DNA of 32,125 nt, from positions 1 through 32,125 of the forward strand of contig JAGAQZ010000088.1 of the NCBI GenBank assembly GCA_017622505.1, in the 5' to 3' direction. The DNA is from Lachnospiraceae bacterium. GTDB lineage: Bacteria; Bacillota; Clostridia; Lachnospirales; Lachnospiraceae. Below are positions 4,386-24,914 of this stretch, one piece after another; within the stretch, counting starts at the first letter, position 1; every line of letters begins with the position of its first letter. Under the pieces are notes generated by a model. The model was given only the letters and a program-made list of their open reading frames with translations, had not been told where the DNA came from and did not search any database. Both the position numbers and the translations under genes were made by a program.

Positions 4386-4546
4386 AACTATTCAGAGCCA
4401 TGCGAATTTATGAAACATAATCCGTGTAAGTTTACTTACAAAGGATTGTTTTCATAAATTCATTTGGCAAAGCCATCACATAAGCAAAAGTAAAGTGCTG
4501 AAGGCACGATTTTGCGAATGTTGGCTCTGAATAGTTGCTTTTTTTT
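4386..4546 (+). repeat. 151-nt intergenic hairpin element A, with T-run
   Basis: Outer arms 4386-4400 and 4522-4536 are perfectly complementary over 15 bp (AACTATTCAGAGCCA). They enclose one long hairpin at 4404-4461 (12-bp perfect base, then AATCC/GGATT and TGTAAG/CTTACA at the tip) and a second at 4484-4515 (GCAAAA/TTTTGC and GTGC/GCAC). The T-run from 4539 would make it a glnA terminator, but it is far larger than an ordinary one. Its size and layout match elements B (20637-20785) and C (24770-24914). Confidence 0.75.
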
Positions 4547-4577
4547 AAAAATATCTTAAATAGGAATTATATTTTTC

Positions 4578-4653
4578 TTGCAACATAGAAAAGATAGTTA
4601 TATAATATGACGTGGGTTTTTTAGGGAAGCTTATTAAACTTCCTAATTCCCAC
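4578..4653 (+). promoter_or_regulatory. Promoter and 5' hairpin of the CofE-like gene
   Basis: -35 TTGCAA (4578-4583), 17-bp spacer, perfect -10 TATAAT (4601-4606). The predicted transcript begins with a hairpin: GTGGG 4612-4616 pairs with CCCAC 4649-4653, and TTAGGGAAG 4621-4629 with CTTCCTAA 4639-4646. No terminator T-run follows, so it looks like a stabilising or regulatory 5' structure. Confidence 0.65.
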
Positions 4654-4680
4654 AAATCTAAAAATAAGAAGGTGCACAAC

Positions 4681-5871
4681 ATGGAAAGAAAAGTTGGAAC
4701 TGTATCACGAGGCATTCGTTGTCCGATTATCCGCGAAGGCGATAACTTGGTTGACATCACCGTTAACAGCGTAATCGAAGCAGCAGAAAGCGAAGGCTAC
4801 GCATTTCGCGACCGCGACGTCGTAGCTCTTACAGAGTCTATCGTAGCGCGTTCTCAGGGTAACTACGTGTCTGTACAGAACATCGCAGATGATGTTAAGG
4901 CTAAATTAGGCGGTGGTACCATCGGTATTATTTTCCCGATTTTATCACGTAACCGTTTTGCCATCTGCTTAAAAGGTATGGCAATGGGCGCTAAGAGAGT
5001 CGTTCTTATGTTAAGCTATCCCAGCGATGAAGTAGGAAACGCGCTTTTAACCTATGATCAGTTAGACGAAGCAGGTATTAATCCTTACAGCGATGTTTTA
5101 ACTTTAGAGAAGTATCGTGAACTCTTTGGTGAAAACAAGCATGAATTTACCGGCGTTGACTATGTTCAGTACTATTCAGATATTATTACCGAAGCAGGCG
5201 CAGAAGTTGAAATCATTTTTGCAAACAATGCAAAGACGATTCTTAACTACACAGACTGCGTAATCAACTGTGACATCCACACAAGAGTAAGAACCAAACG
5301 TCTCTTAAAGGAAGGCGGCGCAAAAGTTGTTTGCGGTATGGACGATATTATGACTGCTCCCATCAACGGTAGCGGCTATAATGCAAAGTATGGTTTGTTA
5401 GGTTCTAACAAGTCTACAGAGGACACAATTAAGTTGTTCCCCAGAGACTGCCAGGACTTAGTAGAAGACATTCAGGCACAGTTGCTTGAAAAGACCGGAA
5501 AGCACGTAGAAGTAATGGTTTACGGCGACGGCGCATTCAAGGATCCCCAGGGTAAGATTTGGGAACTTGCAGACCCCGTTGTATCTCCCGCTTTCACCAA
5601 AGGCTTGGTTGGTACTCCCAACGAATTAAAGTTAAAATATCTTGCTGATAACGACTTTAAGAACTTAAGCGGTGCTGAATTAAAAGAAGCAATTGCCAAG
5701 AGTATTAAAGAAAAGGATTCAAACCTTGTTGGCAACATGGCTTCTCAGGGTACAACACCGAGACAGTTGACTGACTTAATCGGTTCACTCTGTGACTTGA
5801 CCAGTGGTTCCGGTGACAAGGGCACACCCGTAATCCACATCCAGGGCTACTTCGATAACTTTACAGATTAA
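4681..5871 (+). CDS. CofE-like (F420-0:gamma-glutamyl ligase family) protein
   Basis: A 396-residue protein of the CofE family (PF01996/COG1478), whose characterised members add glutamate to coenzyme F420-0 using GTP. Family-like features are the opening VGTVSRGIRCPIIREGDNL, LTESIVARSQGN, a glycine-rich GGGTIGIIFPILSRNR and the acidic region VMVYGDGAFKDP. It is much longer than archaeal CofE (about 250 residues). The start at 4681 is set by AAGAAGG about 8 nt upstream; the frame is open to 4612, but that part lies in the promoter-proximal hairpin. No F420 biosynthesis gene is in the window and Lachnospiraceae are not known F420 producers, so the acceptor is probably something else. A bidirectional terminator follows. 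Confidence 0.85.
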   Translation: MERKVGTVSRGIRCPIIREGDNLVDITVNSVIEAAESEGYAFRDRDVVALTESIVARSQGNYVSVQNIADDVKAKLGGGTIGIIFPILSRNRFAICLKGMAMGAKRVVLMLSYPSDEVGNALLTYDQLDEAGINPYSDVLTLEKYRELFGENKHEFTGVDYVQYYSDIITEAGAEVEIIFANNAKTILNYTDCVINCDIHTRVRTKRLLKEGGAKVVCGMDDIMTAPINGSGYNAKYGLLGSNKSTEDTIKLFPRDCQDLVEDIQAQLLEKTGKHVEVMVYGDGAFKDPQGKIWELADPVVSPAFTKGLVGTPNELKLKYLADNDFKNLSGAELKEAIAKSIKEKDSNLVGNMASQGTTPRQLTDLIGSLCDLTSGSGDKGTPVIHIQGYFDNFTD

Positions 5872-5886
5872 TCTCAACAAATAATA

Positions 5887-5920
5887 AACCCGTAGGTTTT
5901 CAATACCTACGGGTTATTTT
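5887..5920. terminator. Bidirectional terminator
   Basis: The 11-bp perfect stem AACCCGTAGGT (5887-5897) / ACCTACGGGTT (5905-5915) has a 7-nt loop and flanking A and T tracts. It sits between the convergent CofE-like and AGCS genes. Confidence 0.85.
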
Positions 5921-5979
5921 ATATACATATTCTTTCAAATCACATATCAACTTCTATATGTTTATTTGAATCCAACACT

Positions 5980-7428
5980 TTACATCCTCTTAATTGATTC
6001 TTCCTTAGTCCAAACCGTATTTGTCAGACCGATGTTTTCTTCGCAGAATACCGGGTTTTTGCCCTCTTTCTTCTGGGTTTCATAATCTTTTAGGGTCTTA
6101 AATACTGTCTTACTTAAAAGGAAGATTGCCACGATATTTACAATCGCCATAAGTCCCATGGTAATATCCGCTACGTTCCAGGCCAAATCAAAGTCTGCCA
6201 ACGCCCCTAAGAAAACTGCTATCAAGCAGGTCACACGGAATAAGTTCAATAAAAGCTTACTATCCTTAATAAAAAGAATATTCGATTCTGCATAGAAGTA
6301 ATTACCAATCAAACTACTGAACGCAAATGCAAAGATAGATACCGTGATAAAATGAATGCCCCACTCACCTACATTCGCACTGATTGCAGCCTGCACAAAC
6401 GGAATACCGTCAAGCACGCCACTCTGACCTTCCACACCGGAACAGAATAATAACATTGCAGTACTGGTACAAATAAGCAGTGTATCAATAAATACGGAAA
6501 TAACCTGTACAAGCCCCTGCTGAACCGGGTGTGAAACATCCGCTGATGCAGATGCGTTGGGCGCACTACCCATACCTGCTTCATTGGAGAACAAACCTCT
6601 CTTGATACCAATTACAATAGCACTTCCGGCAAAACCGCCTGCCATAGCACGGAAATTAAAAGCACTCTCAAAAATCATTCTAAAAATTTCAGGAAGTTCC
6701 TTAATATTTATAATGGTAACCACAACACTCATCAAAATATAAATGGACGCCATCACAGGCACCATTACGGAAGATACGAAACCGATTCGGTGCGCACCAC
6801 CCCAAATAACCCAAGCGGTTACGGCAGCTAACACCAGGCCAAGAACAATGGATACAATCATTGGCACATCGGTATCCGCATAATCCTGGAAATAATACTG
6901 CAACGCAGACGACATATTATAAGACTGTAAGCCGTTAAATCCGTATGCAAAACAGATAATCAGAAGAATCGAGAACAACACGCCCATCCAACGCATTCCA
7001 AGTGCCTTCTCCATATAATAAGAAGGACCGCCACGGAAAGAACCGTTTTTATCCTTTACCTTATATACCTGTGCCAATGTACTTTCTGCAAAAGCAGATG
7101 CACCGCCGATAATCGCCATCAGCCACATCCAGAATACTGCCCCCGGACCACCTGTTGCAATCGCAGTTGCAATACCCGCAATATTTCCGGTACCGACTCT
7201 TGATGCGGTAGAAATCATCAAAGCCTGGAAAGAAGAAACCTTCTTCTTGCCGTTCTCATCCGTGGAACCTTTCTCCAACATCGCCTTGAATCCGTCTTTT
7301 AACAGACGAAACTGCACGAACTTCGTTCCCATGGTATAAAATACCCCAATACCAATCAACAGAATAATCAATATGTACGTATACATAAAATCATTCACGG
7401 AACCTGTAAACTTAACTAAAAAATCCAT
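5980..7428 (-). CDS. Sodium:alanine symporter, AGCS family
   Basis: A 482-residue inner-membrane symporter that imports alanine, glycine or related amino acids with Na+ (or H+). About ten to eleven membrane helices are evident. Family signatures are clear: GPGAVFWMWLMAIIGGASAF, GGPSYYMEKALG, and the diagnostic NEAGMGSAPNASASAD around residue 285, where substrate and sodium bind. The length fits AlsT/AgcS proteins. The start ATG 7426-7428 has only a moderate site (AAGGGTAAGGG). The gene stands alone; its leader seems to contain the hairpin and T-run described at 7461-7490. The exact amino acid cannot be decided from sequence. Confidence 0.95.
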   Translation of the reverse strand: MDFLVKFTGSVNDFMYTYILIILLIGIGVFYTMGTKFVQFRLLKDGFKAMLEKGSTDENGKKKVSSFQALMISTASRVGTGNIAGIATAIATGGPGAVFWMWLMAIIGGASAFAESTLAQVYKVKDKNGSFRGGPSYYMEKALGMRWMGVLFSILLIICFAYGFNGLQSYNMSSALQYYFQDYADTDVPMIVSIVLGLVLAAVTAWVIWGGAHRIGFVSSVMVPVMASIYILMSVVVTIINIKELPEIFRMIFESAFNFRAMAGGFAGSAIVIGIKRGLFSNEAGMGSAPNASASADVSHPVQQGLVQVISVFIDTLLICTSTAMLLFCSGVEGQSGVLDGIPFVQAAISANVGEWGIHFITVSIFAFAFSSLIGNYFYAESNILFIKDSKLLLNLFRVTCLIAVFLGALADFDLAWNVADITMGLMAIVNIVAIFLLSKTVFKTLKDYETQKKEGKNPVFCEENIGLTNTVWTKEESIKRM

Positions 7429-7460
7429 CTGTACCCTTACCCTTCTTATATTTTACCCCG

Positions 7461-7490
7461 AAAAAAAAGGGGATTTTACTTCCCCTTTTT
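7461..7490 (-). terminator. Terminator-like hairpin in the AGCS leader
   Basis: AAAAAGGGGA (7464-7473) pairs with TCCCCTTTTT (7481-7490), with a 7-nt loop and, on the minus strand, a run of eight T. It is suited to ending transcription of the ArAE gene upstream, but it also falls just downstream of a predicted AGCS promoter. Confidence 0.75.
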
Positions 7491-7501
7491 CAACTATAAA
7501 A

Positions 7502-7529
7502 ATAATATCATATTTTTCTTTGCTTGCAA
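7502..7529 (-). promoter_or_regulatory. Candidate AGCS promoter
   Basis: Minus strand -35 TTGCAA (7524-7529), 16-bp spacer, -10 TATTAT (7502-7507). The inferred start near 7495 is about 5 nt before the hairpin at 7461-7490. Confidence 0.45.
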
Positions 7530-7581
7530 ACTATAATCTGCTTTGAACGTTCTATTTCATTATACCTGCAGATTCAATAAA

Positions 7582-8568
7582 TCACTTCTGCTTCCCGGCC
7601 TCCGAAAACTTCTCCGAAAACTCAATTTTCAGAAGTACAAACTCTTCGATTTTACGCATCAAACTGAATAACATGGCGCGATCTTCGAATTCCTTACGGG
7701 CAACCGGCAAGGGCTTGGACTTCATCTCCAAATCCATTTCCTTAAACTTCTCCAGCGTAAGTTTGCCGTCATTATCCTTATGATACGTCTCTGACATATA
7801 TTTTAGAAAGTCCGAAATCAAATGGGCCGTGCTGGGCGTCGTATCAATGTGACGCACGATTTTGTACATTTCATGGATGACCATACATTGTTTGTCACGC
7901 ATTCGTATGTACTCAATATCATAAATGTCCGTAGTTCCGAACTGGTTATTATAATTCCGGTCCGCCACGTTCTTGGCATTACGAATTGACTTACGCAACT
8001 GGTGAAGCAGTTCACCGTTATAGTCTGTATTTTCCGCATCCAGAATATGCTCTGCCATTCCCGCAAGAATACTCTTCATTTCCGCATCGGTCTCATCTTT
8101 TAACTGCTCAATGTAGTCCACGTCTTTGCGTAAATGCAAGTTTGCAACCACGCCCATACCGACACCGATGGTGAAAATCAAAATTTCATTCATTACATGG
8201 TTAAAACTCATATCTCCCAAAATAATAAAATGCGACGCTACTACCGAACATATGGTAAGGGCATAACTCCACCTGCACAACTGACATACAGGAATATAAA
8301 TTACCAAAAACAGCGCAAATGCCTTAATGTTAAAACCAAGCAAACCAAAGCAAACAAAAGCCAGAATCAGCGCAACGCCAAACGCCAGAAAGCGGATGCC
8401 GGCAGTCTTTAACGTCTCTTTCTTTGTAGGCATAATCGTCAACAAAGATATAACGCCTGCCGAAGCCACAAACTCCAAATCCAATAAATAGGCAATGGCC
8501 ATAGCCAGCAAAGCTGCACATATTAACTTAATACAGGTAAACAAAGTTTCCAACCAAGGTTTCTTCAT
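7582..8568 (-). CDS. Aromatic acid exporter (ArAE/DUF939) family membrane protein
   Basis: A 328-residue protein with about six hydrophobic helices in residues 1-150 (for example LFTCIKLICAALLAMAIAYL and FIILGDMSFN before the last pair). A soluble, largely helical C-terminal half of about 180 residues follows. This is the layout of Firmicutes ArAE_1 proteins (PF06081 with its C-terminal partner domain), relatives of the AaeB/FUSC exporters. I chose ATG 8568 over a GTG at 8577 because AGGAAG lies 8 nt upstream of the ATG but directly abuts the GTG. The substrate is unknown; export of aromatic or other organic acids is inferred from the family. It appears monocistronic, ending in the hairpin at 7461-7490. 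Confidence 0.85.
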   Translation of the reverse strand: MKKPWLETLFTCIKLICAALLAMAIAYLLDLEFVASAGVISLLTIMPTKKETLKTAGIRFLAFGVALILAFVCFGLLGFNIKAFALFLVIYIPVCQLCRWSYALTICSVVASHFIILGDMSFNHVMNEILIFTIGVGMGVVANLHLRKDVDYIEQLKDETDAEMKSILAGMAEHILDAENTDYNGELLHQLRKSIRNAKNVADRNYNNQFGTTDIYDIEYIRMRDKQCMVIHEMYKIVRHIDTTPSTAHLISDFLKYMSETYHKDNDGKLTLEKFKEMDLEMKSKPLPVARKEFEDRAMLFSLMRKIEEFVLLKIEFSEKFSEAGKQK

Positions 8569-8652
8569 ATGGTTCACTTCCTATTGTTTTTAAGATGCTC
8601 CTATCAAGTATATCATACCCTGCCTGTTTTTTCGATATTTTTATTCATTCTT

Positions 8653-9342
8653 TTAGTTTCGACGTCTCCTTCCAAACAGAAGAAATAAACGAAGTACCTG
8701 TAACGCCGTAGCAATCACTCCTGCCACATAAGTTAAGGCGGCTGCATTTAATACTTTCTTTGCCCCCGTAATTTCATCACCGTACAGAATCCCTGTATCA
8801 CGGATTACTCCAATCGCCCGCTTGGAAGCGTTAAATTCCACCGGCAAAGTCACAATCTGAAACAATAAAACCAGTGTAAAAAGTATAATTCCGACATCGA
8901 CCAATCTAGTCAATCCAAACAAAACACCCAGTAAAATCAAGGGCCACGACAGATTTGAGCCAAAATTTACCACCGGCACGATGGCATTGCGCACACGAAT
9001 GGGCAGATAGCCGTTATAATGTTGTAATACGTGCCCGCATTCGTGGGCCGCCACTCCGATTGCGGCCACCGACGTAGAATAATACACGCCCTCCGACAAA
9101 CGCACCACCTTATTCTTTGGATCGTAGTGGTCCGTCAATTCCCCTTCAATCCTTTCAATCCGCACATCCGAAATCCCTGCGCCCTTCAAGATGCGCTCCG
9201 CCACCTCTGACGCAGTCATTCCGCGGGCATTTTCAATTTTACTGTATTTTCTGTAAGTGGCGCTGACATTGCCGGACGCTGCCAGACAAAGAAGCATTCC
9301 CACAATAATCAGCCACCACGTAGGATCATAAAAAAAGAACAT
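8653..9342 (-). CDS. Membrane neutral zinc metallopeptidase (YugP-like)
   Basis: A 229-residue membrane protein of the Zn_peptidase_2 family (PF04298, B. subtilis YugP type). An N-terminal membrane helix (WWLIIVGMLLCLAAS) is followed by a soluble part with the zinc-binding motif HECGH at residues 100-104. The motif sits in AAHECGHVLQH, where both histidines and the glutamate are expected to bind zinc and catalyse. Two or three further membrane segments follow (VDVGIILFTLVLLFQIV and the alanine-rich C-terminus). GGAGG upstream of ATG 9342 supports the start. Its substrates are not known. The flanking genes share its strand but with gaps of about 50-80 bp and no obvious functional link. Confidence 0.92.
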   Translation of the reverse strand: MFFFYDPTWWLIIVGMLLCLAASGNVSATYRKYSKIENARGMTASEVAERILKGAGISDVRIERIEGELTDHYDPKNKVVRLSEGVYYSTSVAAIGVAAHECGHVLQHYNGYLPIRVRNAIVPVVNFGSNLSWPLILLGVLFGLTRLVDVGIILFTLVLLFQIVTLPVEFNASKRAIGVIRDTGILYGDEITGAKKVLNAAALTYVAGVIATALQVLRLFLLFGRRRRN

Positions 9343-9395
9343 AAAAAATTCCTCCGTTACATACTTTACTTTTAGAATGTCCCGAAGGATATTTT

Positions 9396-10133
9396 TTAAT
9401 TCAAGGATATTTCACGCAAGTGCACGGACTGAAATTTCCGTGGCGTCAGTCCGGTATATTTCTTAAATACCTGTGTAAAATAGCTTTGGTCGGGAAACGC
9501 CAGAATAGAAGATATTCTCGCCGGCGTGAAATCAGAATACAGAAGCATATTCTTCGCAGCATCAATTTTTAACTGCTGGATATATTCGCTGACAGACACG
9601 CCTGTTTCTTTTTTAAAAAGACGGCACAAATACGACGGATTCAAGTCCACCAGCTCCGCCAGTTCTTCCACTGTAATTCTGGAATGCAGGTTATCATGCA
9701 TATAATCAATGCAACGTACCACATGAATGGAGCAGATTTTATCCTTGCGAAGTTTCTTCATACGCCCCGCATAATCCATAGCCGCCTCACGATGCAACAC
9801 ATTTAAGGCCTCCGGCGAATTGCTCTCGTCCGCCTTCTGAATATAAAAGTCACTCAGCGCATAAGACGTGGACACGTCCATTCCTCCATCAATACAGTAT
9901 CTCGCAATCAGCGCAATTGTAATAACGAAATGATACTTCAAATTCTGCATATTATTCTTGGACAAAACGCCAAGACCTTTCTTATCCGTAAAAGTATCCT
10001 TACACAATTCCTCTGTCTTCTTCACGTCCCCGGACTTAATAACGGAATAAAATTCAAGTTCCGGGTTGTACGGTGCACGCAGAATATTCTCTTCTTTTCT
10101 TAAAAATTCTTTGTATACAAATTCTTTTTTCAT
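9396..10133 (-). CDS. AraC family transcriptional regulator
   Basis: A 245-residue regulator with a C-terminal AraC/XylS DNA-binding domain (about residues 145-240). The first helix-turn-helix is ITVEELAELVDLNPSYLCRL and the second, family-signature part is SSILAFPDQSYFTQVFKKYTG. The N-terminal 140 residues are helical and lack the cupin fold of sugar-sensing AraC proteins; they resemble the N-terminal part of other Firmicutes two-HTH regulators that use no obvious small ligand. The start ATG 10133 has AAGGGAAG upstream. It is divergent from the GH16/GH5 glucanase genes with 213 bp between, so control of that pair is the natural reading, though inferred. Confidence 0.9.
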   Translation of the reverse strand: MKKEFVYKEFLRKEENILRAPYNPELEFYSVIKSGDVKKTEELCKDTFTDKKGLGVLSKNNMQNLKYHFVITIALIARYCIDGGMDVSTSYALSDFYIQKADESNSPEALNVLHREAAMDYAGRMKKLRKDKICSIHVVRCIDYMHDNLHSRITVEELAELVDLNPSYLCRLFKKETGVSVSEYIQQLKIDAAKNMLLYSDFTPARISSILAFPDQSYFTQVFKKYTGLTPRKFQSVHLREISLN

Positions 10134-10346
10134 ATTCTTCCCTTATTTACATTTTACAATCTGACTGTAATTCGCAATTCATTATTTCAACAATTCAACA
10201 TTTCACTTTCATAAATACATTTTTATTATTTACTACATTTCACATTATATCATAATCCTTATAAAATTGTAATTATTTTTATATAATTTAGACTTTTATA
10301 ATGCTATTTTAGTATCAGAAACACAAATCCCGAAAGGAGCAGACTT
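10134..10346. promoter_or_regulatory. Divergent control region, araC-like / GH16
   Basis: This AT-rich spacer holds two exact copies of ACATTTCAC (10198-10206 and 10235-10243, 37 bp apart), arranged as tandem direct repeats as AraC proteins often require. A -10 box TATAAT at 10297-10302 precedes the GH16 gene but has no good -35 at 17 bp, as expected for an activator-dependent promoter. The roles of the repeats are inferred. Confidence 0.4.
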
Positions 10347-11726
10347 ATGAAAAAGAATTTTAAAACCGCAATTTCAATTGCAGCAATGTTAACAATGACA
10401 ATTTCACTGTTCGGCTGTGGCGAAGAACCCCAGGCCAACCAGTTCGCCCAGGAAGACGTCCCCCAGTTAGAAGGCTATTCTCTTCTCTGGAATGACGAAT
10501 TCAACGGCAACGAATTAAATATGGACATCTGGAACTATGAACCCCATGAGCCCGGCTGGACCAACAATGAATTGCAGGAATATACAACTTCTACCGACAA
10601 TGTTTTCATCCGTGACGGTCACGTAGTAATCAAGGCATTGGAAACCACCGATGAAAACGGTAACCCTTACTACACTTCCGGAAAAATCACTTCTCAGAAC
10701 AAGAAAGATTTCATGTACGGCAAAGTGGTAATCAGTGCCAAAGTTCCCGAAGGTCAGGGTTTATGGCCTGCACTTTGGATGATGCCCACCGACGAAAGCT
10801 ACTACGGACAGTGGCCCAAATGCGGTGAAATCGACATTATGGAAGTGCTCGGCGACCAGACCGAAATCGCATACGGCACCGTACATTACGGCGAGCCTCA
10901 CGCAGAACAGCAGGGTATCTATACTTTGGAAGAAGGCACTTTTGCAGATGACTTCCATGAGTACAGTGTCGAATGGGAACCCGGCGAAATGCGCTGGTAC
11001 ATCGACGGCAACTTATATCACACCGCAAACGACTGGTTCACAGCTTACCCTGATGAAGACGAGAAGCCTTACCCCGCGCCTTTTGACCAGACCTTCTTCG
11101 TACAGATGAACTTGGCTGTAGGCGGCAACTGGCCCGGCAATCCCGATGAAACAACTGATTTTGAAAACGCAGAATTTGAAATCGATTATGTACGTGTATA
11201 TCAGAAAGACTTTTATGACACAAACGTAACCAAACCCGAGAAATTATTCCGTGAGCCTTTAGAAGACGGCAACTACATTTACAACGGTGACTTCTCTGAT
11301 AACGAAGATCTTTTGGACGAAGAAAACTGGTACTTCCTTTTATTTGAAGGCGGTGACGGCTCTGCTGCCCTGAACGACGGCGTATTAACCATCTCAACCG
11401 TAGCGGAAGGTACCGTTGACTATTCCGTACAGATTGTACAGCCCGCAATTCCTATTTTAAAAGGTAAAACCTACCGTTTGACCTTTGACGCCTGGGCTGC
11501 TGAAGAACGCGATATGATTGTATGCGTATCCGCACCTACCGCAGGATGGATTCGCTACTTTGAAGATACTACTTTTACGGTGACAACCGAACCTCAGACT
11601 TTTACTTACGAATTTACAAGTCTTTACAAAGATGACAACAACGGACGTTTGGAATTCAATATGGGTAACAATGGCTCTACTGCTGAAATCTATATTGACA
11701 ACGTACGCATTGAATTAGTGGAATAA
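10347..11726 (+). CDS. Lipoprotein GH16 endo-beta-1,3(4)-glucanase with CBM
   Basis: A 459-residue surface enzyme likely to cut laminarin or mixed-linkage beta-glucan. A lipoprotein signal peptide ends in the lipobox LFGC (Cys24), so the enzyme is tethered to the outer face of the membrane. The GH16 domain spans about residues 42-287. Its catalytic core is GEIDIMEVLG, where Glu161 is the expected nucleophile, Asp163 assists and Glu166 is the acid/base; the extra residue (ExDxxxE-like spacing ExDIME) is that of the laminarinase branch. WPALWMMP and GLWP support this. Residues about 300-459 form a jelly-roll resembling CBM4/9 modules. AAAGGAG precedes ATG 10347. A GH5 gene follows 13 bp before its chosen start, so they form an operon. 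Confidence 0.93.
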   Translation: MKKNFKTAISIAAMLTMTISLFGCGEEPQANQFAQEDVPQLEGYSLLWNDEFNGNELNMDIWNYEPHEPGWTNNELQEYTTSTDNVFIRDGHVVIKALETTDENGNPYYTSGKITSQNKKDFMYGKVVISAKVPEGQGLWPALWMMPTDESYYGQWPKCGEIDIMEVLGDQTEIAYGTVHYGEPHAEQQGIYTLEEGTFADDFHEYSVEWEPGEMRWYIDGNLYHTANDWFTAYPDEDEKPYPAPFDQTFFVQMNLAVGGNWPGNPDETTDFENAEFEIDYVRVYQKDFYDTNVTKPEKLFREPLEDGNYIYNGDFSDNEDLLDEENWYFLLFEGGDGSAALNDGVLTISTVAEGTVDYSVQIVQPAIPILKGKTYRLTFDAWAAEERDMIVCVSAPTAGWIRYFEDTTFTVTTEPQTFTYEFTSLYKDDNNGRLEFNMGNNGSTAEIYIDNVRIELVE

Positions 11727-11739
11727 TAAGGTGATCAAA

Positions 11740-12768: not shown

Positions 12769-12822
12769 TCTCCCCTTCATTCACTGCCTGAATTTTTGTA
12801 TCGTTCAGGTAAATATCTCCCC

Positions 12823-12866
12823 AAAAACATCGCTTAAACTTATGCTTAGGCGATGTTTTTATTTTA
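12823..12866 (+). terminator. Terminator after the glucanase operon
   Basis: The 11-bp perfect stem AAAAACATCGC (12823-12833) / GCGATGTTTTT (12850-12860) is followed by more T. A smaller hairpin CCTGAA/TTCAGG lies just upstream. Confidence 0.85.
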
Positions 12867-12887
12867 TAAAAAAACCGCCTTGCTTTA

Positions 12888-12916
12888 TTGTAATTGTGAA
12901 TTTCTTGTGATAATAT
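12888..12916 (+). promoter_or_regulatory. Promoter of the OFA transporter
   Basis: -35 TTGTAA (12888-12893), 17-bp spacer ending TGA, -10 TAATAT (12911-12916). The start would lie near 12923. Confidence 0.55.
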
Positions 12917-12976
12917 AAAAATGGCGTGATTTTTACATAAAACAATAAGAAAAAATCGGAAAGGACGCATGAAATT

Positions 12977-15376: not shown

Positions 15377-15406
15377 ATGTCAATATTCAGTTTTTAATTG
15401 TTGTGT

Positions 15407-15820: not shown

Positions 15821-15849
15821 AAGATAATCCTCCTTAATTTTTATGCATA

Positions 15850-15877: not shown

Positions 15878-15902
15878 TCATATAAAAAAGCGCAAATACT
15901 TT

Positions 15903-16577: not shown

Positions 16578-16645
16578 AGATTTCTCCATTCTTTTTACTA
16601 CTTCTGATTTTACAACGATATCTCTCTTATGTACACTAATACATT

Positions 16646-17191: not shown

Positions 17192-17256
17192 TTGTACACC
17201 TTAACTTCTTCACTGTTAATTTACTGTATCTTAATGGTTTCTGCCCATTTTACGCT

Positions 17257-17285
17257 ATTATACAATGCTTTCACGCTTTTCTAAA
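17257..17285 (-). promoter_or_regulatory. Promoter of the sigma/anti-sigma genes
   Basis: Minus strand -35 TTTAGA (17280-17285), 17-bp spacer, perfect -10 TATAAT (17257-17262). A housekeeping-type promoter with a weak -35. Confidence 0.5.
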
Positions 17286-17322
17286 GTAACTATAAGCCTA
17301 ATTCTTTTTACCCTGTTTCTTC

Positions 17323-18471
17323 CTACCTTCCGTAGATAATTTCGCCATTTATAACCGTCCACAATGTTCTTGTCATACACTCCAACGGGTTCCCCGAGAA
17401 AATCGCAACATCCGCATCCTTCCCTTTTTTCAAACTTCCCACTCTATCATCCACGCGACAAATACGCGCTGCATTAATCGTTATAGCCTTAAGCCCCTCT
17501 TTCCTTGGCATACCGTATTTTACCGCCAAACCGGCACACAAAGGCAGGTACTGAATCAGCGACACCGGATGGTCCGTTGTAATTGCAGTTAAAATCCCCG
17601 CATCGCACAACACCTTATTGGTTTTAAAATTCATATACTGCACCTCAGGCTTAGACCTGGCCGTCAAATCAGGTCCTACAATGGCAGGAAAACCCGAAGC
17701 CTTGATTTCATCTGCAATTAAATGCCCCTCTGTACAATGGTCGATTGTAATGTCTACACCAAACTCTTTGGCAATGCGGATAGCCGTCAGAATATCATCT
17801 GCCCGATGCGCATGTGCCTTCAGCGGAATCTCGCCGTTTAATACCGGAATCCAAGGCTCCATCTTAAAATCCTCTTGCTTTAATTCACCACTGACTTTGT
17901 CGGTCAAATACTGTCTTGCCTCAAATAACGTCTGTCGAAGCATTGCTGCAGTTGCCATTCTGGTAGATGGATACATATCTTTGTCCCCATATGCAGTCTT
18001 CGGATTCTCCCCGAAGGCTACCTTCATAGCTGCAGGCGCTTTTACCACCATATCGTCAATGCATCTTCCATGGGTTTTCATAAAAAGAAACTGACCGCCT
18101 ACCACATTGGCACTTCCCGGCCCTACCATAACAGACGTAATTCCGGCTTCAATTGCATCATGGAAAGCCGGGTCCATAGGATTTACCGCATCAATTGCCC
18201 GAAGTTCCGGCGTGACAGGATTTGTCATTTCATTACAGTCGTCTCCCATTGTCCCAAGCTTTTCTTCTATAATTCCGATGTGACAATGTGCCTCGATAAT
18301 CCCGGGCATCACCCAGGCGCCTTTGACATCAAGAACCTCCTCCCCGACTTCCGCCTTTGGACATACTGACATATCTCCTATCGCGTCTATGATTTTACCT
18401 TTAATTCGCACGAAACCGTTCTCATAGTCCTGGGCTTCCATCGTTATAATTTTACCGTTTATAATCAACAT
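17323..18471 (-). CDS. Amidohydrolase, imidazolonepropionase-like (COG1228)
   Basis: A 382-residue metal-dependent amidohydrolase. The small composite beta-domain is built from the two ends (MLIINGKIITM and the C-terminal GKDADVAIFSGNPL), with a TIM barrel between. Metal-site candidates are His62 and His64 (AHCHIG), His220/His222, Asp244-His245, His250 and Asp300-His301 (TTDHP), all in the order expected for the family. Family members open lactam or amide rings, or cleave dipeptides; the substrate here is unknown. There is no signal peptide. It lies 50 bp downstream of the K+ channel gene, and its AGAGGTGG ribosome binding site is part of the terminator hairpin in that gap, so expression may be conditional. 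Confidence 0.9.
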   Translation of the reverse strand: MLIINGKIITMEAQDYENGFVRIKGKIIDAIGDMSVCPKAEVGEEVLDVKGAWVMPGIIEAHCHIGIIEEKLGTMGDDCNEMTNPVTPELRAIDAVNPMDPAFHDAIEAGITSVMVGPGSANVVGGQFLFMKTHGRCIDDMVVKAPAAMKVAFGENPKTAYGDKDMYPSTRMATAAMLRQTLFEARQYLTDKVSGELKQEDFKMEPWIPVLNGEIPLKAHAHRADDILTAIRIAKEFGVDITIDHCTEGHLIADEIKASGFPAIVGPDLTARSKPEVQYMNFKTNKVLCDAGILTAITTDHPVSLIQYLPLCAGLAVKYGMPRKEGLKAITINAARICRVDDRVGSLKKGKDADVAIFSGNPLECMTRTLWTVINGEIIYGR

Positions 18472-18513
18472 AAAAAAACCACCTCTGTTTCATTATTCTA
18501 AACAGAGATGGTT
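18472..18513 (-). terminator. Terminator containing the SD of the amidohydrolase
   Basis: Arms 18477-18490 and 18500-18513 pair at 13 of 14 positions. On the minus strand the 3' arm holds AGAGGTGG and is followed by seven T directly before the ATG. It is therefore both an intrinsic terminator for the channel gene and a potential sequestering hairpin for the next gene's ribosome binding site. Confidence 0.8.
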
Positions 18514-18521
18514 AATTTATA

Positions 18522-19727
18522 CTAAACTTCCATATATTTTGCATCTTCCAAATGCATCTGTGTATGAAGGAAAACACGGTCATTCTTGATAAGTACCATA
18601 TCACCATTTGGAATCAAGGCTTTGTTTTTACGCTTCACAAGTACAATAACCGTCTTGCGCCCCAAATTCAAATCCCTAATGCGTTTATTGCACCAAGGAT
18701 GTTCTTTCTTCATTACAACTTCCTGCATACGAATGCTTTCGTGCTCCTTAAACGGTTCTGCACCAAGAACAACTACATCTTCTGCCTCAAGCACAGCGCC
18801 GCCGTTTGGAATCAGGAACTCATCATCGCGCTGAATCAGTGAAATAATAACACCTACGGGCAAATCCAAATCCGCAATACGTTTGCCGTTCCACACATCA
18901 TTGGCATCAACACGCACCTTAATAAAATTCATGTCCTCTTCATAGCCATATTCGTTTCTCTTCTTTAAATTGGTATACTGATCCACAAAACCTGCTGAAA
19001 TAATACCGGTAGGAATCGCAACCATTCCCACACCCAGAAACGATATAAAAATACCAAGGGCTTTTCCCCAGAATGTAATCGGATATATATCACCATATCC
19101 AATGGTCAGAAGCGTGGATGTCGCCCACCACAAACCGGAAAATGCATTCTGGAATACTTCCGGCTGCGCCTCATGCTCTAAGCTGTACATACAAAGACTG
19201 GAAGCTACCATCAATGTCAAAATAATAAAAACCGACGATATCAGCTGTTGCTTTTTACTTACCAGAACATGGGTAATTACATTCAACGAATCATAATACG
19301 CATTAATTCTAAACAGCCTGAAAATACGTACAATTCGAATCATACGAAACGCAATGGTACCCTGAGGGAAAATAACCGGCAGGAAGTACGGCAAGAAAGA
19401 AAGCAAGTCCACAATACCCATAAAAGAAAAGACATATTTGCGGATTGCCTTCCACTCATTTTTCTCTTTGTACATACATCTTGCAGTAATAAGTCTTAAA
19501 ATATAATCAATTACAAAAAATGCAACCGTTATTGCTTCAACCACAAGCAAAATCGGCTCATATTGTGCACGAATCGTCTCATATGTATACAAAATGCTGA
19601 CTGTAAGATTTAATACAATTGCAGCAACATTGACATAATCATATCCGCGGCTAACCCAATCCAAATCATACCCTACATCTATAATCTGAAAAATTCTCTG
19701 TCGTCTTTTCAACCACTTTTTACTCAC
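18522..19727 (-). CDS. Voltage-gated-type K+ channel with two TrkA-C domains
   Basis: A 401-residue cation channel. Helices S1-S4 occupy about residues 31-142, with S4 carrying the repeating arginines RMIRIVRIFRLFRI (128-141). The pore has the K+ filter TIGYGD at 208-213, between S5 (about 163-182) and S6 (about 222-245). The cytoplasmic tail contains two TrkA-C (RCK_C) units, about 268-323 and 332-390, that look like tandem copies: VWNGKRIADLDL...LIPNGG against PWCNKRIRDLNL...LIPNGD. There is no NAD-binding RCK_N domain. The start is GTG 19727 with GGGAGG 7 nt upstream. It lies 24 bp after nadE, so probably one transcript. The ligand is unknown; RCK_C units of related proteins bind cyclic di-AMP. 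Confidence 0.92.
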   Translation of the reverse strand: MSKKWLKRRQRIFQIIDVGYDLDWVSRGYDYVNVAAIVLNLTVSILYTYETIRAQYEPILLVVEAITVAFFVIDYILRLITARCMYKEKNEWKAIRKYVFSFMGIVDLLSFLPYFLPVIFPQGTIAFRMIRIVRIFRLFRINAYYDSLNVITHVLVSKKQQLISSVFIILTLMVASSLCMYSLEHEAQPEVFQNAFSGLWWATSTLLTIGYGDIYPITFWGKALGIFISFLGVGMVAIPTGIISAGFVDQYTNLKKRNEYGYEEDMNFIKVRVDANDVWNGKRIADLDLPVGVIISLIQRDDEFLIPNGGAVLEAEDVVVLGAEPFKEHESIRMQEVVMKKEHPWCNKRIRDLNLGRKTVIVLVKRKNKALIPNGDMVLIKNDRVFLHTQMHLEDAKYMEV

Positions 19728-19751
19728 AACAAATCCTCCCGTTGTTGTAAA

Positions 19752-20495
19752 TTATAACAACTCTTTATCCGGCTTATAAAAAGGCAAGGGTTTTAATTTA
19801 AATGCGTTCATCTTGTTCATTCGGTCAATCTTTGTCTTGGTGTCAGCATCTTCGCACACGCCGGTTCTGATATACTTATCGAGCACCGCATAAGTAAAAC
19901 CGATTTTATCTTCGTCAGACATACCGCTCAAACCGTCAGAAGGCACCTTGTGCACCAAATTATAAGGCACGCCAAGGTAGTCGCCCACCTGAAGCACTTC
20001 TTCCACCGTAAGGCCTGCTACAGGACCGAAATCCCCTGCGGAATCGCCGTAGCGTGTTGAATATCCAATCCAATCTTCGGACAAATTACAGGTATTTGCA
20101 ACACGGCCGTTTAAGGTCTGTGAAAAAGCATACAAGGTCGTCATACGAAGTCTCGGCGCCAAATTAAGCACTGCCTGATCGCTGGGCTCCAAGCCTGCTG
20201 CCTTAATGCTTGCCAAAGTATTATCATATGCATCTTTGATATTTGAAGTATAATTACGAATTCCCAAATGCTCTACCAACTGTCTGGAATCGGCAATATC
20301 ACACTGCTCGCCATTGGGCATCAGAATACCTACGACACGGTCCTTACCCAAAGCTTCCACACACAAAGCTGCTACAATACTTGAGTCCTTACCTCCGGAA
20401 ATACCGATTACAGCATTGCATCCCTTACCATTCTCTTCAAACCAATCCTGAATCCATTTGATTAAGTCTGCCGTCACTTTCTCTACCTGAAACAT
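19752..20495 (-). CDS. nadE: NAD(+) synthetase, ammonia-dependent
   Basis: Catalyses the last step of NAD synthesis: amidation of nicotinic acid adenine dinucleotide with ATP and ammonia. The 247-residue length covers only the synthetase domain, without the N-terminal nitrilase domain of glutamine-using enzymes. The pyrophosphate-binding P-loop SGGKDSS is at about residues 34-40. TCNLSEDWIGYSTRYGD and the DFGPVAGLTVEEV loop are characteristic. The end KLKPLPFYKPDKELL lies in the usual C-terminal position. GGAGG precedes ATG 20495. It heads a minus-strand run with the K+ channel. A 9-bp hairpin (19741-19761) overlaps its stop codon, just before the channel's ribosome binding site. Confidence 0.95.
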   Translation of the reverse strand: MFQVEKVTADLIKWIQDWFEENGKGCNAVIGISGGKDSSIVAALCVEALGKDRVVGILMPNGEQCDIADSRQLVEHLGIRNYTSNIKDAYDNTLASIKAAGLEPSDQAVLNLAPRLRMTTLYAFSQTLNGRVANTCNLSEDWIGYSTRYGDSAGDFGPVAGLTVEEVLQVGDYLGVPYNLVHKVPSDGLSGMSDEDKIGFTYAVLDKYIRTGVCEDADTKTKIDRMNKMNAFKLKPLPFYKPDKELL

Positions 20496-20550
20496 AATTG
20501 CCTCCGATTAATTATTTTTTATAATAATTTCGCACATCTATACACCCTAG

Positions 20551-20579
20551 ATTTTAACACCCAACCTTTATAAATACAA
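20551..20579 (-). promoter_or_regulatory. nadE promoter
   Basis: Minus strand -35 TTGTAT (20574-20579), 17-bp spacer, -10 TAAAAT (20551-20556). Confidence 0.55.
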
Positions 20580-20636
20580 CTAAATTATTACTCTGATTAT
20601 ATCAATTTGTTCACTTACTTTTCCCAAATATGACCT

Positions 20637-20785
20637 GCTGTATGAACATTTTATATTTCAAAAAGAACCGTATGAAAACGTCGGTACTTAACGAGTACAA
20701 ATGAAATGTAGTACGAGTTTAGTATCCGTTACGTTTTCATCCGAGCGAAAGCGCGTTCTGTTGGAATATAAAATGTTCATACAGC
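20637..20785. repeat. 149-nt intergenic hairpin element B
   Basis: The nadE/yuxH-like gap (20496-20927) holds the two divergent promoters and this element. Outer arms 20637-20657 and 20765-20785 are a perfect 21-bp inverted repeat (GCTGTATGAAC... / ...GTTCATACAGC), extending to 25 bp with one G-T pair. Inside, AGAAC/GTTCT, then ATGAAAACGT (20672-20681) with ACGTTTTCAT (20731-20740), then a long imperfect stem 20682-20698 / 20711-20728. A GNRA-like mini-hairpin GCGAAAGC lies at 20745-20752. No T-run follows, so it is not a plain terminator. Confidence 0.75.
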
Positions 20786-20836
20786 TTTCGTAACCTCGGA
20801 ACAAGCAATCAAATCAGTATTTATATTAACTTTCGA

Positions 20837-20901
20837 TTGTAGAAATATACATTTTATTGTAAAATGATTTTAATCAGCCGAATGTATTTACAATACATTC
20901 G
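20837..20901 (+). promoter_or_regulatory. Promoter and 5' hairpin of the YuxH-like gene
   Basis: -35 TTGTAG (20837-20842), 17-bp spacer, -10 TAAAAT (20860-20865). Perfect 10-bp arms CGAATGTATT (20879-20888) / AATACATTCG (20892-20901) lie about 7 nt after the inferred start. This is either an mRNA hairpin or an operator. Confidence 0.55.
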
Positions 20902-20927
20902 AGCCCCCCGCAAAAGGAGGATAAAAT

Positions 20928-22151
20928 ATGCTTGCAACACTAATCCCGTTATTTGATGAAAATATGTCTGTGAAGGCTTATTCGCTCTTCTCACAGAAGA
21001 ATAATTATTTCCTGGAACCCAGTTATATTTCCACCGGTTTGCTGGACGGCGCAGGACGTATCAACGGTCTGGAAATCATTGAAAGTATGGGCATCGAAAC
21101 CTTATCCCCGGACAAGGAAATTTTCATTCCCATCAACAATATTGCAATTTTCAGTAACATTTCCGAAGAATGCAAAGCACCCCACGAACGTATTGTGCTT
21201 TTAATCGACAATTCCATTCTTCCCAACGAAATGTATATTAACCGTTTGAAAGAATTAAAAGAACAGGGTTATCGTTTTGCAATCCGCAAACTCCCCGTAG
21301 CTTCTTTCGAAGACTACCGTCAGATTCTGCTTTTATGCAGTTATATTTTCCTGAATCATCAGAAGATAGACATCACTATGGCCAAAATTTATTTTACCAA
21401 GCTCTATCCCAATATTAAGTTGATTGCCGGCAACATCAAGAGCCAGGAAGAATATGAGAAGTTGAAATTCCAGGGTGGCTACGCCTTTTATGAAGGCGAA
21501 TTCTATCGCACACCCGTTACGGAAGGCGAGAACGAAGTTAACCCTGTTAAAATCAATTACATCCAATTATTGAACATTGTAAATGAAGAAAACTTCGACT
21601 TAACCGATGCTGCGGATGTCATCGGGCGCGATACCGCTTTGGTTATCTCTTTGTTAAAAATCGTAAACCGTATGGCAATCAATTCGGAGATTACATCCAT
21701 CCGTCACGCAACCGCAATGCTCGGTCAGCGTGAGCTTAAGAAATGGACCACAACTGCGGTAACCAAACAGCTTTGCCTGGATAAGCCTAACGAAGTAACC
21801 CGTTTATCCCTGCTTCGTGCAAAGTTTGCAGAGAATTTGGCACCTATATTCAGTATGGCAATGAAGTCCCAGGAACTTTTCTTGATGGGTCTGTTCTCCG
21901 TATTGGATATTATGCTTGATAAACCGATGGATGAGGCACTGGATATGGTAATCGTATCCAAAGACATCCGTAAATCCCTTGTAAACCACGACGGACCGCT
22001 CTCACTTCCCTACTACTTTATTCTGCAGTATGAGAATGCCAACTGGCAGGAAGTATCGCGTATTATGTTGATCCGCGAAATCGAAATGGACGAAGTTTAC
22101 AAGGCTTATTGCGATGCCCTGAAGTGGTACCGCAGAATTTTCAGTGAATAA
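20928..22151 (+). CDS. YuxH-like protein: degenerate EAL plus HDOD domain
   Basis: A 407-residue cytoplasmic signalling protein. The N-terminal half (about 1-195) follows the EAL fold as in YuxH (COG3434): LIPLFDENMSVKAYSLF aligns with the usual Q-P-I-F...YELL opening. The catalytic glutamate of EAL is replaced by serine (AYSLF) and the later acidic metal ligands are not evident, so hydrolysis of cyclic di-GMP is unlikely; binding is possible. The C-terminal half (about 205-400) is an HDOD domain (INYIQLLNIVNEENFD, SLLKIVNRMA, ITSIRHATAMLGQRELKKW). AGGAGG precedes ATG 20928. A response regulator and histidine kinase follow on the same strand, suggesting one signalling unit. Confidence 0.88.
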   Translation: MLATLIPLFDENMSVKAYSLFSQKNNYFLEPSYISTGLLDGAGRINGLEIIESMGIETLSPDKEIFIPINNIAIFSNISEECKAPHERIVLLIDNSILPNEMYINRLKELKEQGYRFAIRKLPVASFEDYRQILLLCSYIFLNHQKIDITMAKIYFTKLYPNIKLIAGNIKSQEEYEKLKFQGGYAFYEGEFYRTPVTEGENEVNPVKINYIQLLNIVNEENFDLTDAADVIGRDTALVISLLKIVNRMAINSEITSIRHATAMLGQRELKKWTTTAVTKQLCLDKPNEVTRLSLLRAKFAENLAPIFSMAMKSQELFLMGLFSVLDIMLDKPMDEALDMVIVSKDIRKSLVNHDGPLSLPYYFILQYENANWQEVSRIMLIREIEMDEVYKAYCDALKWYRRIFSE

Positions 22152-22242
22152 TTAAATAAGGATACACAAAGGATAAATCCTCCCTTTATGATGACATTGT
22201 AAAAGGGACACATAAACCTAATTTGTACCTTGGGAGGCAAAC
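22152..22242 (+). promoter_or_regulatory. Leader of the response regulator with alternative pairings
   Basis: TCCCTTT (22181-22187) can pair with AAAGGGA (22202-22208). CCTCCC (22179-22184), which shares the same bases, can instead pair with the ribosome binding site GGGAGG (22232-22237). The two structures exclude each other. A weak promoter (TTGTAA 22197-22202, 16 bp, TAATTT 22219-22224) is also possible. Confidence 0.35.
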
Positions 22243-22920
22243 ATGGCATATCAAATTCTGTTGGTTGAAGACGATTCTCAAATCCGTGAAGTAATCTGCG
22301 ATTATTTTACGGATAAAAGTGAGGGTGAAATGGTGATGCACGCCTATGACAACGGCGACGATGCGTTGGAAGCCATTTATGAAAACGAATTTGACCTGTG
22401 TATATTGGATGTCATGTTGCCCGGTGCAGACGGCTTTGAAATCTGCCGTACCATCCGCAAAGACAGCATTGTTCCCATTATGTTTATCACGGCGAGAGGC
22501 CGAGAAGAAGACGTTCTTTACGGCTACCAGCTGGGCTGTGATGACTATGTGGTGAAACCCTTCTCTCTTGCGGAGTTCTACGCCAAAACCCAGGCGCTCT
22601 TAAAACGCGCCAAGGGTATGGTGGCAGGACCTTGGTTATCATGTGGTGAAATTGCCTTGAATCCCTCCCGCTATAAGGTGACGGTAGAAGGTCATCCCAT
22701 TAATTTACCACCCAAGCAGTTTGCACTTCTGAAATATCTGTTGGAGAACAAAAACACCGTCGTTCCCCGCGAAACCCTGTTAGTCAAAATCTGGGGCTAC
22801 GATTACGAAGGCGGTGAACGCGTGGTAGATAACCACATCAAGAAACTCCGTCATGCGGTCGGTCCTTACAAGAAACAAATCAAGACCGTCATTACCAAAG
22901 GCTACAAAATTACGGATTAA
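22243..22920 (+). CDS. Response regulator, OmpR/PhoB family
   Basis: A 225-residue two-component regulator. The receiver domain (residues 1-118) has the acidic pair in LVEDD (10-11), the phosphorylation site Asp56 (LDVMLPG), a conserved threonine in FITARG and Lys105 in VKPF. The C-terminal winged helix (about 130-225) has PPKQFALLKYLLENKNTVV, RETLLVKIWGYDYEGGERVVDNHI and the wing VITKGYKI. GGGAGG lies 6 nt before ATG 22243. The cognate histidine kinase starts 45 bp downstream. The genes it controls are not evident from the window. Confidence 0.97.
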   Translation: MAYQILLVEDDSQIREVICDYFTDKSEGEMVMHAYDNGDDALEAIYENEFDLCILDVMLPGADGFEICRTIRKDSIVPIMFITARGREEDVLYGYQLGCDDYVVKPFSLAEFYAKTQALLKRAKGMVAGPWLSCGEIALNPSRYKVTVEGHPINLPPKQFALLKYLLENKNTVVPRETLLVKIWGYDYEGGERVVDNHIKKLRHAVGPYKKQIKTVITKGYKITD

Positions 22921-22965
22921 TGTGTTTTCCGCTCTTTCAATCATAAACGGAAAGGATTTATTTTT

Positions 22966-24678
22966 ATGTCTAAAAATAAAAAAAGTCGCGTTGCCCGTCT
23001 TGGCAAACGCAAAACTTTTAAAAGTATATTTTTCAAAAGATGGTTCGAAGTACTTCTTGTTTTTGCCATTTTACTGGCTATCTTTGTTCCCGTAATAATA
23101 AACGCTACTTTTATCGCTATGGAAAATCTGTTTTTCGTAACAAATTCCAATATGCAACAAACCCTGGAAGACGCTTACGCTGATATCTATGGCAAGGGTT
23201 CTCTTGTGCCGGAAGAAGAGCGCAATCAAGCCTTTATCGACCGTGCCAAATACCGTGTTATCTCTTACTCCTATAGTTCAGAATATCTCAGCATGTTATA
23301 CGATCCTTCTACCGGTGAAATACTTGCCGATTGCGATGAGACCCTTTTTATCTTAGTGCGCGAAGATGAAGAAAAACCTGCTAAAATGTACTCCTGTCCC
23401 ACCTCCGCAGTGCCGGAATACAGGGATTTGCTGGCAAGCGTAGCGCAAGATTTTAAGACTTATACAAAGTATTATGTCGAGGCAGACTTTGATACTTTCT
23501 ATATCAAAGATGACGAATTCCGTCCCGGCTCAATGACTGCCTATGTTGCACCCTTAGAATCGGAATATGATTTAACCTTACAGGACATTGAAGATGTTGC
23601 TGTGGAAACTTATCACTTCGACTATACTCCTACCGAAAGCGGTTATACGGAATGCAATGTTAATTCTTACAAAACCGTGTTAGGGCCTCTGGTGGCAGGA
23701 TATGGTGACACTTCCTTCTATCTGTTCCGGGATTCCGCCGATAAAGCTTGGGAAATCCTACATGAAACCTATAACGAAGAAACCGGGCTTGTCACTCCCA
23801 AAGAAACCGATATAACCATTTCTCATGAAGGAGATGCCCTGCTGATTGTATCCGAAACACCGATTTATTTCTCGGCGGATACCGTTTATACCCTGCGCAG
23901 TGTATGTTACTTTGACACAGATGATATATTTGGTATTCCTTTAATCATTTTTATCATTGCGGTTATATTACTTTCAGCCCTGTTCTGTTTTATTACTGCT
24001 AAGATTACTTATGCACGTTTAAAAGCGCAGTACGACATAGCGGACTACCGCAAGACCTTGATGAACACCATGGCCCACGATTTAAAGAGTCCGCTGATGT
24101 CCATCTCAGGCTACGCCGAGAATCTGAAAGAGTCAGTACACTCCGAGAAACGCGAACACTATGCTTCTGCCATTATGAATAACGTAGACCATATGAACCG
24201 CATCATCAGTGATATTCTCTCCCTCTCCAAAACAGAAGATGGTAATATAGTTCTGAACAAAACAGAGTTAAGCGTCGAATACGTGATTCGCAACTGTTTG
24301 AAGAAATACGAGTTACAGTTGGGCGAACGCAAGTTGCAGACTGAAATTGTTGGTGCCTTAAACCTTCGTGCAGATCAAACACTTTTTACGGAAGCGATGG
24401 ACAACCTCATTGGAAATGCTGTAAAATACGCCGACAGCGATTCGGTAATCACTTTTACTTTAAATAAAAAAAGCATCGGTATTACGAACCAATGCAGTGC
24501 TGAAATCAGTGATGCAAATGAATTACTTAAGCCCTTCGTGACCGGCAATGAGAATCGCAACAACAAGGGCGGAAGCGGTTTGGGATTAGCGATTGCCAAG
24601 AACATTATGGACTTGCATAAATTTAGTTTATATGTTAAATGTGAGAACAAAAATTTTGAAGTAGGTATCAAATTATAA
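22966..24678 (+). CDS. Sensor histidine kinase
   Basis: A 570-residue membrane kinase paired with the response regulator just upstream. A basic cytoplasmic start is followed by TM1 (about 27-50), a large extracellular sensor of about 270 residues, and TM2 (about 324-347, IPLIIFIIAVILLSALFCF). The phosphoacceptor His371 lies in MAHDLKSPLMSISGY. The ATPase domain has the N-box DNLIGNAVKYA and the G-box GGSGLGLAIAKNI; the part between them is short, as in other Firmicutes kinases with a compact lid. The sensor is rich in acidic and aromatic residues and matches no domain I recognise. The start has AAAGGA about 9 nt upstream. The stimulus is unknown. Confidence 0.95.
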   Translation: MSKNKKSRVARLGKRKTFKSIFFKRWFEVLLVFAILLAIFVPVIINATFIAMENLFFVTNSNMQQTLEDAYADIYGKGSLVPEEERNQAFIDRAKYRVISYSYSSEYLSMLYDPSTGEILADCDETLFILVREDEEKPAKMYSCPTSAVPEYRDLLASVAQDFKTYTKYYVEADFDTFYIKDDEFRPGSMTAYVAPLESEYDLTLQDIEDVAVETYHFDYTPTESGYTECNVNSYKTVLGPLVAGYGDTSFYLFRDSADKAWEILHETYNEETGLVTPKETDITISHEGDALLIVSETPIYFSADTVYTLRSVCYFDTDDIFGIPLIIFIIAVILLSALFCFITAKITYARLKAQYDIADYRKTLMNTMAHDLKSPLMSISGYAENLKESVHSEKREHYASAIMNNVDHMNRIISDILSLSKTEDGNIVLNKTELSVEYVIRNCLKKYELQLGERKLQTEIVGALNLRADQTLFTEAMDNLIGNAVKYADSDSVITFTLNKKSIGITNQCSAEISDANELLKPFVTGNENRNNKGGSGLGLAIAKNIMDLHKFSLYVKCENKNFEVGIKL

Positions 24679-24769
24679 CATTATATTTATAATAACCAAA
24701 CAACTACTGTCCACTCAAATTTAATATCAAAATTTGCGAAGTTGAAACATCTCTAGCAGTATATGAAAT

Positions 24770-24914
24770 GCCCATCTAAGATAAAAATTATGTTTTCAAA
24801 GGGCTTTTGTGCGCGTCAGTGCTTAGATTGCGTATTTTGCAATCTTATGCACTGCTACGTAGCACAACAGAGCGCAAGCGTCCCTGCGAAGACATATTTT
24901 TATCTTAGATGGGC
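24770..24914. repeat. 145-nt intergenic hairpin element C
   Basis: The element lies between the convergent kinase and AlkD-like genes. The outer 19-bp arms 24770-24788 and 24896-24914 are perfect (GCCCATCTAAG... / ...CTTAGATGGGC). With one bulge the stem continues (TATGTTTTC 24789-24797 / GAAGACATA 24888-24896, one G-U), then GGG/CCC. CTTTTGTGC (24804-24812) pairs with GCACAACAG (24862-24870). The tip AGTGC...GCACT encloses AGATTGC (24825-24831) / GCAATCT (24839-24845). A GNRA mini-hairpin GCGCAAGC is at about 24872-24879. Same length class as elements A and B. Confidence 0.78.

Follow-up and report, generated by a model that had tools for sequence, protein, structure and literature searches.

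The window, by which we mean the whole stretch of 32,125 nucleotides that was analysed, contains three intergenic hairpins, which an earlier note had described as elements A, B and C of a single family (all coordinates are given on the plus strand). Their positions, 4386-4536 for A, 20637-20785 for B and 24770-24914 for C, could be confirmed, and so could the outer stems, which are perfect over 15, 21 and 19 bp and consist only of Watson-Crick pairs. The folding energies calculated for the plus strand are -66.0 kcal/mol for A, -66.4 for B and -73.9 for C. These are the only sites in the window with perfect inverted repeats whose arms are at least 15 bp long and 20-200 bases apart, and repeats of that kind did not occur at all in 20 mononucleotide-shuffled windows. 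The genome from which the window comes amounts to 2.44 Mb in 146 contigs.

Judged by their sequences, B and C are homologous. The profiles of the two recover each other in searches of the retrieved loci, and one single covariance model finds both, with 84.2 bits (E 4.4e-16) for a conserved structured core in B at 20666-20762 and 62.8 bits (E 1.3e-11) for a core of the C subtype at 24801-24889. The core of B is enclosed by the inner inverted arms at 20637-20657 and 20765-20785, which form the perfect 21-bp stem, and that of C by the arms of the 19-bp stem at 24770-24788 and 24896-24914. B probably reaches past the limits first assigned to it, as a weaker second inverted repeat is found about 20 bases further out; its probable, degenerate outer arms were read by eye at 20593-20612 and 20799-20817, and the right one is not seen at the orthologous site in the related genome G041. 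A DNA search with B gave 27 matches in the window's genome, a count that includes the query and its match to itself in inverted orientation.

Element A, with its terminal inverted repeat (AACTATTCAGAGCC...), inner long hairpin and 3' mini-hairpin, is on the same grounds a second repeat of similar build that is unrelated to B and C, and the idea of one family of three had to be given up. An iterated nhmmer profile found 12 copies of A in the retrieved loci of the window's genome, nine near-complete (the window copy counted) and three partial, which have conserved ends, and it found no B/C element in the loci retrieved at that stage. A was likewise rejected as a B/C member by the covariance model, which has no match there and whose next best match in the window after B and C reaches 8.0 bits. 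The short motifs said to be common to A and C are placed as claimed, but the two do not share more words than expected by chance (nine 6-mers against a shuffled mean of 5.9, p about 0.18; three 7-mers against 1.5, p about 0.23). The motif GTTTTCA does occur in all three elements, but is marginal, with p about 0.02 for any 7-mer common to all of them. It is also correct that A alone has a T-run beside it and that none follows B or C, but this T-run belongs to the locus: it is found again beside the A ortholog at the same place in G041 and is missing from the nine other aligned copies (L002-L008, L057 and L345). The arrangement of an intrinsic terminator, a GC-rich stem followed by a T-run, is thus lacking in B and C and locus-specific in A.

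With the covariance model, 58 B/C matches were found in the window's genome, 46 in G005 and 39 in G041. In the window's genus 27 out of 31 genomes are positive, with a range of 0-58 matches and none in four. In a sample of the order, where the filters were stricter than in the genus count, 13 out of 196 genomes had matches, the window's genome counted, and all 13 belong to one family, for which 22 genomes are listed. Among other genomes, the Agathobacter MAG G227 has at least 150 matches, G172 has 76 and G226 has 44. An exact-pattern scan of named genomes gave at least 118 stretches with the B/C pattern, and most of the 80 matches listed carry the name of Lachnospiraceae or its genera, some of these 80 being labelled just Clostridiales, Clostridia, Eubacteriaceae, Firmicutes or bacterium, and one Bacteroides sp.; among viral contigs there was one match. 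The covariance-model search of the host and its relatives, which the earlier note had proposed, thus yielded both further copies and covariation, and not the lack of both that it had named as counting against a family. Rfam 15 at the gathering threshold gave only tRNA in the window (also with E up to 1) and nothing in 14 B/C loci. No publication on this Lachnospiraceae repeat was found in the open-access literature, which is weak evidence for its absence from print.

In an alignment of 94 diverse B/C cores the fold comprises about 90 nt, with one long bulged arm and a mini-hairpin with a GNRA-type loop. Nineteen of the 23 core pairs vary on both sides, and the covariation score is 0.500, compared with 0.184 when shuffled and 0.116 at most when slid. 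The switches between G-C and A-U pairs show few G-U states, except at the innermost pair 39-65, which adjoins the variable loop. At the same time a 2-nt bulge, a U-U mismatch and a tandem G-A step are kept in the alignment as read, and since these unpaired features are retained while the pairs change, we read the pattern as selection on the fold. For the B/C core, the earlier suggestion of a structured family can therefore be upheld.

One explanation would be that the core is a structured RNA gene or 3'-UTR element used by the host, that the copies are ancient and that selection on the RNA keeps them paired. The strong covariation, the unpaired motifs that are conserved across a bacterial family (GNRA-type loop included) and the many loci common to several species all agree with this, and so does the excess of G-T pairs (46) over A-C pairs (22) among the mismatches of the inner stem. 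RNA stems are expected to hold more G-U pairs than B/C stems show, and G-U pairs are in this respect few for an RNA. The genomic setting also speaks against a host RNA. The 124 copies at 119 loci have no clear bias in orientation relative to genes, 34 and 28 being co-directional with their neighbours, 19 between convergent and 12 between divergent genes, with 12 more within an ORF call and 19 with a neighbour missing. When the 475 ORFs within 2.5 kb were clustered, with one element per locus, no cluster covered more than 8 loci, so that there is no recurrent neighbour gene; a partner gene travelling beside the elements was ruled out by the same result. The biggest of these clusters resembles an ABC transporter, judged by eye. 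Together with the range from 0 to at least 150 matches per genome and the target duplications described below, this makes a host RNA rather unlikely in our view.

The other possibility raised by the earlier note, palindromic mobile elements, gains support in the case of B/C from that same range of copy number, from sites without the element and from the terminal repeats and target duplications in Agathobacter. The Agathobacter unit is about 180 bp and runs from TCCC to GGGA; its inverted ends are long, and matches to the left end are spaced about 180 bp from those to the right end. Fifty of 65 copies could be parsed to both ends (the left end was misplaced in one), and in 17 of the 50 the two flanks agree at 8 or all 9 of 9 bases, which corresponds to AT-rich target duplications of 8-9 bp. 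Flanks taken from different copies agree this well in 4.7% of cases. Of the 17 copies, 8 lie at one offset. The duplications were found in Agathobacter only, and none was seen in the genome of the window. A similar end motif is present in both arms of 11 out of 75 elements from four genomes of the window's genus and in none of the 75 further out, two of the 11 being an orthologous pair and L251 looking doubtful.

Orthologous stretches for 15 loci of the window's genome were compared in three related species, and 27 out of 36 have no profile match. Twenty-two of these 27 aligned across the junction, and L270, also one of the 27, on one flank only, the quality of the junctions being uneven because the intergenic DNA has diverged. 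In G041 the B element of the window is missing at the orthologous site. Some of the empty sites may be losses. At L288, one of the 22 aligned stretches, and in the G041 ortholog of C, the arms and the mini-hairpin are kept but not the long arm. Presence or absence at orthologous sites, terminal inverted repeats and a target duplication are among the features by which a MITE is recognised, and the B/C family shows these three, the last in Agathobacter. Another such feature would be ends shared with an autonomous element. A transposase or an autonomous partner was not found in 222 kb of Agathobacter loci, where only 12 of the 154 matches to the ends are not next to a core and the sole facing pair encloses no gene, nor in a whole-genome search with the Agathobacter ends, among the 40 of 379 candidates that were scored.

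Where the arms come from is another matter, and they could be the split stem of a DNA hairpin or terminator into which the element had inserted. G005 carries a hairpin of 9 bp at the L050 site, and in the window's genome the two arms of this hairpin are found on either side of the element. At the L018 site of G005 there is a terminator-like hairpin, of which the outer 7 bp border the element, and in G041 a small palindrome sits at the L053 junction. At all three sites the relative lacks the element, and its hairpin or palindrome has letters in common with the arms. The L015 and L023 sites have other hairpins, and all five cases taken together fit hairpin targeting. The terminator-like hairpins at L015 and L018 are unrelated between species, which indicates a fast turnover of hairpins there. 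On the other side, the private arm in the genome BH.7_2 has, by eye, the conserved outer ends on one side and the core on the other, and the arms in Agathobacter lie inside the target duplications, both of which indicate that the arms belong to the element. The element-free sites of window B, L011 and L017 also have no right outer arm in the alignments as read. As a general explanation, arms derived from the target were thus reduced to a minor rival by the Agathobacter duplications, and we regard insertion into hairpins as improbable.

If the arms are part of a mobile element, an unusual property of theirs is that they are private to each copy and paired all the same. A near-perfect inner stem with a median length of 20 bp stands beside the core in 197 of 216 distinct elements, compared with 7.5% when arms from different copies are combined, and an outer stem is found in 103 of 215 family members, compared with 10.5% for mismatched copies; left and right arms match better within a copy than against other copies. 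Pairs other than Watson-Crick are rare in the inner stems that were detected, with 123 of 4067 (46 of them G-T and 22 A-C), which agrees with copying from arm to arm. In three G005 copies whose cores are 97-99% identical the outer half of the inner arm differs and each is still paired, and in the G041 ortholog of C the inner arms differ on both sides and still pair. From such unrelated but perfectly paired arms the earlier note had concluded that there is selection on structure. This does not follow, because the arms of Agathobacter copies change together and 5 out of 50 carry one version on both sides: at a diagnostic arm site left and right differ in 34 copies, three carry the left form in both arms, two the right form, and 11 are of other kinds. 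In 49 Agathobacter copies there are 28 alike changes in both arms beside the core, compared with a shuffled mean of 8.2 and a maximum of 16 in 500 shuffles, and 54 at the ends, compared with a mean of 29.7 and a maximum of 47. These correlated changes, and the five copies with one version on both sides, point to copying from arm to arm. Changes in one arm only are more numerous than alike ones (34 against 28 beside the core, 160 against 54 at the ends), and the identity of the arms over 50 nt is barely higher within copies (0.656) than between them (0.582), so the copying in Agathobacter seems to be incomplete. Template switching is able to create and maintain hairpins (PMC8794818). The locus-specific paired arms are probably best explained by DNA copying of one arm from the other.

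L012 and L067 have almost identical arms and flanks and different core subtypes, and the same is true of the orthologous loci L047 and L039, where arms and flanks are near-identical and the core is of another subtype, from which we infer that cores are exchanged between copies. At the orthologous loci L051 and L061 both arms and core differ. Across the B/C family the ends have diverged more than the core, and in Agathobacter the median pairwise identity is 91% for cores and 71% for left arms.

We therefore propose, with a probability of about 0.68, that the B/C elements are small, non-autonomous, MITE-like elements of Lachnospiraceae whose arms are kept paired by arm-to-arm copying. The unit would consist of two long terminal inverted arms around a folded core of about 90 nt, in total about 180 bp in Agathobacter and by our estimate roughly 200-230 bp in the genome of the window. 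It would insert into AT-rich intergenic DNA, in several copies directly beside a terminator, with the 8-9 bp target duplication seen in Agathobacter and with a transposase presumably supplied in trans. Once the palindrome has settled, its two arms would edit each other through template switching or mismatch repair, as the pattern of changes suggests, and since a change in one arm can be copied to the other, the arms of each locus would become private and stay paired. Cores would also be exchanged between copies, as the orthologous loci indicate, and mobility probably requires the conserved core in cis, in the form of a folded strand. We further hypothesize, with considerable doubt, that the core is a functional folded strand of single-stranded DNA or RNA whose shape is read by the mobility machinery, and that this class of element, spread through a whole bacterial family, is defined by the core and not by the ends and has arms that drift freely and correct themselves.

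The high copy number, the intergenic location and the opposed pairs about 50-300 bp apart could also suggest REP-like elements whose movement as single-stranded DNA depends on a RAYT-type tyrosine transposase, and the letters CGTC and GTAG-like do stand at the foot of the core arm. RAYT-type REP elements would not be expected to have long terminal repeats or target duplications, and the presence of both in B/C speaks against this origin. The foot letters are moreover paired, columns 22-27 with 80-87 being unpaired in at most three of the 94 sequences each, so that the unpaired GTAG/CGTC tag at the foot of a hairpin is not found in these cores, and GTAG is replaced by GTAA in many members. We consider such an origin very unlikely. 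REP elements with GTAG/CGTC tags (PMC3733652) are likewise palindromic, intergenic, numerous and arranged in opposed pairs, but they are 20-40 bp with an unpaired tag, whereas the B/C unit is about 180 bp and its letters are paired. Neither of the words Clostrid and Firmicutes was found in the main text of PMC3733652.

The B/C family is an abundant repeat in an important gut family, with no Rfam match in the window and the 14 loci that were scanned. It also calls for caution, since paired changes in a stem, the standard sign of RNA structure, can come from copying between the arms of mobile DNA palindromes. The Agathobacter set, with its similar cores and more diverse arms, is a natural place for measuring arm copying in bacteria. 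BOX, ERIC and bcr1 are dispersed intergenic repeats with a predicted secondary structure, and B/C resembles them in these three respects. In a usual MITE the ends are better conserved than the core, and the opposite order in B/C counts against the proposal. The B/C elements share several traits with bacterial MITEs as reviewed in PMC10969869: they are short, no gene was seen in them, they are bounded by terminal inverted repeats, their targets lie in AT-rich intergenic DNA, young copies carry direct repeats, and a strand of them folds into a stable hairpin. They differ in that each copy has private arms of about 50 bp and that conservation across a bacterial family is higher in the folded core than at the ends. 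The B/C elements are thus ordinary in kind, being MITE-like, and unusual in their conserved, family-wide folded core and their private, self-matching arms.

Elements of the B/C family, a MITE-like repeat family, recur as opposed pairs in which a copy on the minus strand is followed by one on the plus strand at a spacing of about 50-300 bp. Such pairs were found in Agathobacter (L305, L309, L297 and L329, L numbers denoting individual loci), at eight further loci (L092, L107, L113, L118, L128, L151, L181 and L194), and, in the covariance-model scan of genomes of the genus, at G000:C35:18147-18624 (genome, contig and positions). The long core arm is missing from two copies, L288 and L233, the latter being the ortholog of window element C (24770-24914) in the related genome G041, and both have kept the outer arms and the mini-hairpin. 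One B/C element is carried by L202, an IMG/VR contig classed as viral.

In several copies (L025, L027, L289, L329 and L156), as judged by eye, an end of the element sits immediately past the T-tract of a terminator-like hairpin. At the intergenic sites of loci L015 and L018 of the window's genome, the terminator-like hairpins of sister species have unrelated stems (L272, L273, L283, L285 and L287), and look as if they had been wholly rewritten.

Family A, the separate family of the element at 4386-4536, has a 3' mini-hairpin of its own, GCACC..GGTGC and variants, which by eye covaries between that element and the copies L002-L008 and L057. Elsewhere, the window holds a tRNA gene on the minus strand (31991-32076) and a gene (10347-11726) that is similar, by a match under curated cut-offs, to endo-1,3-1,4-beta-glycanases.
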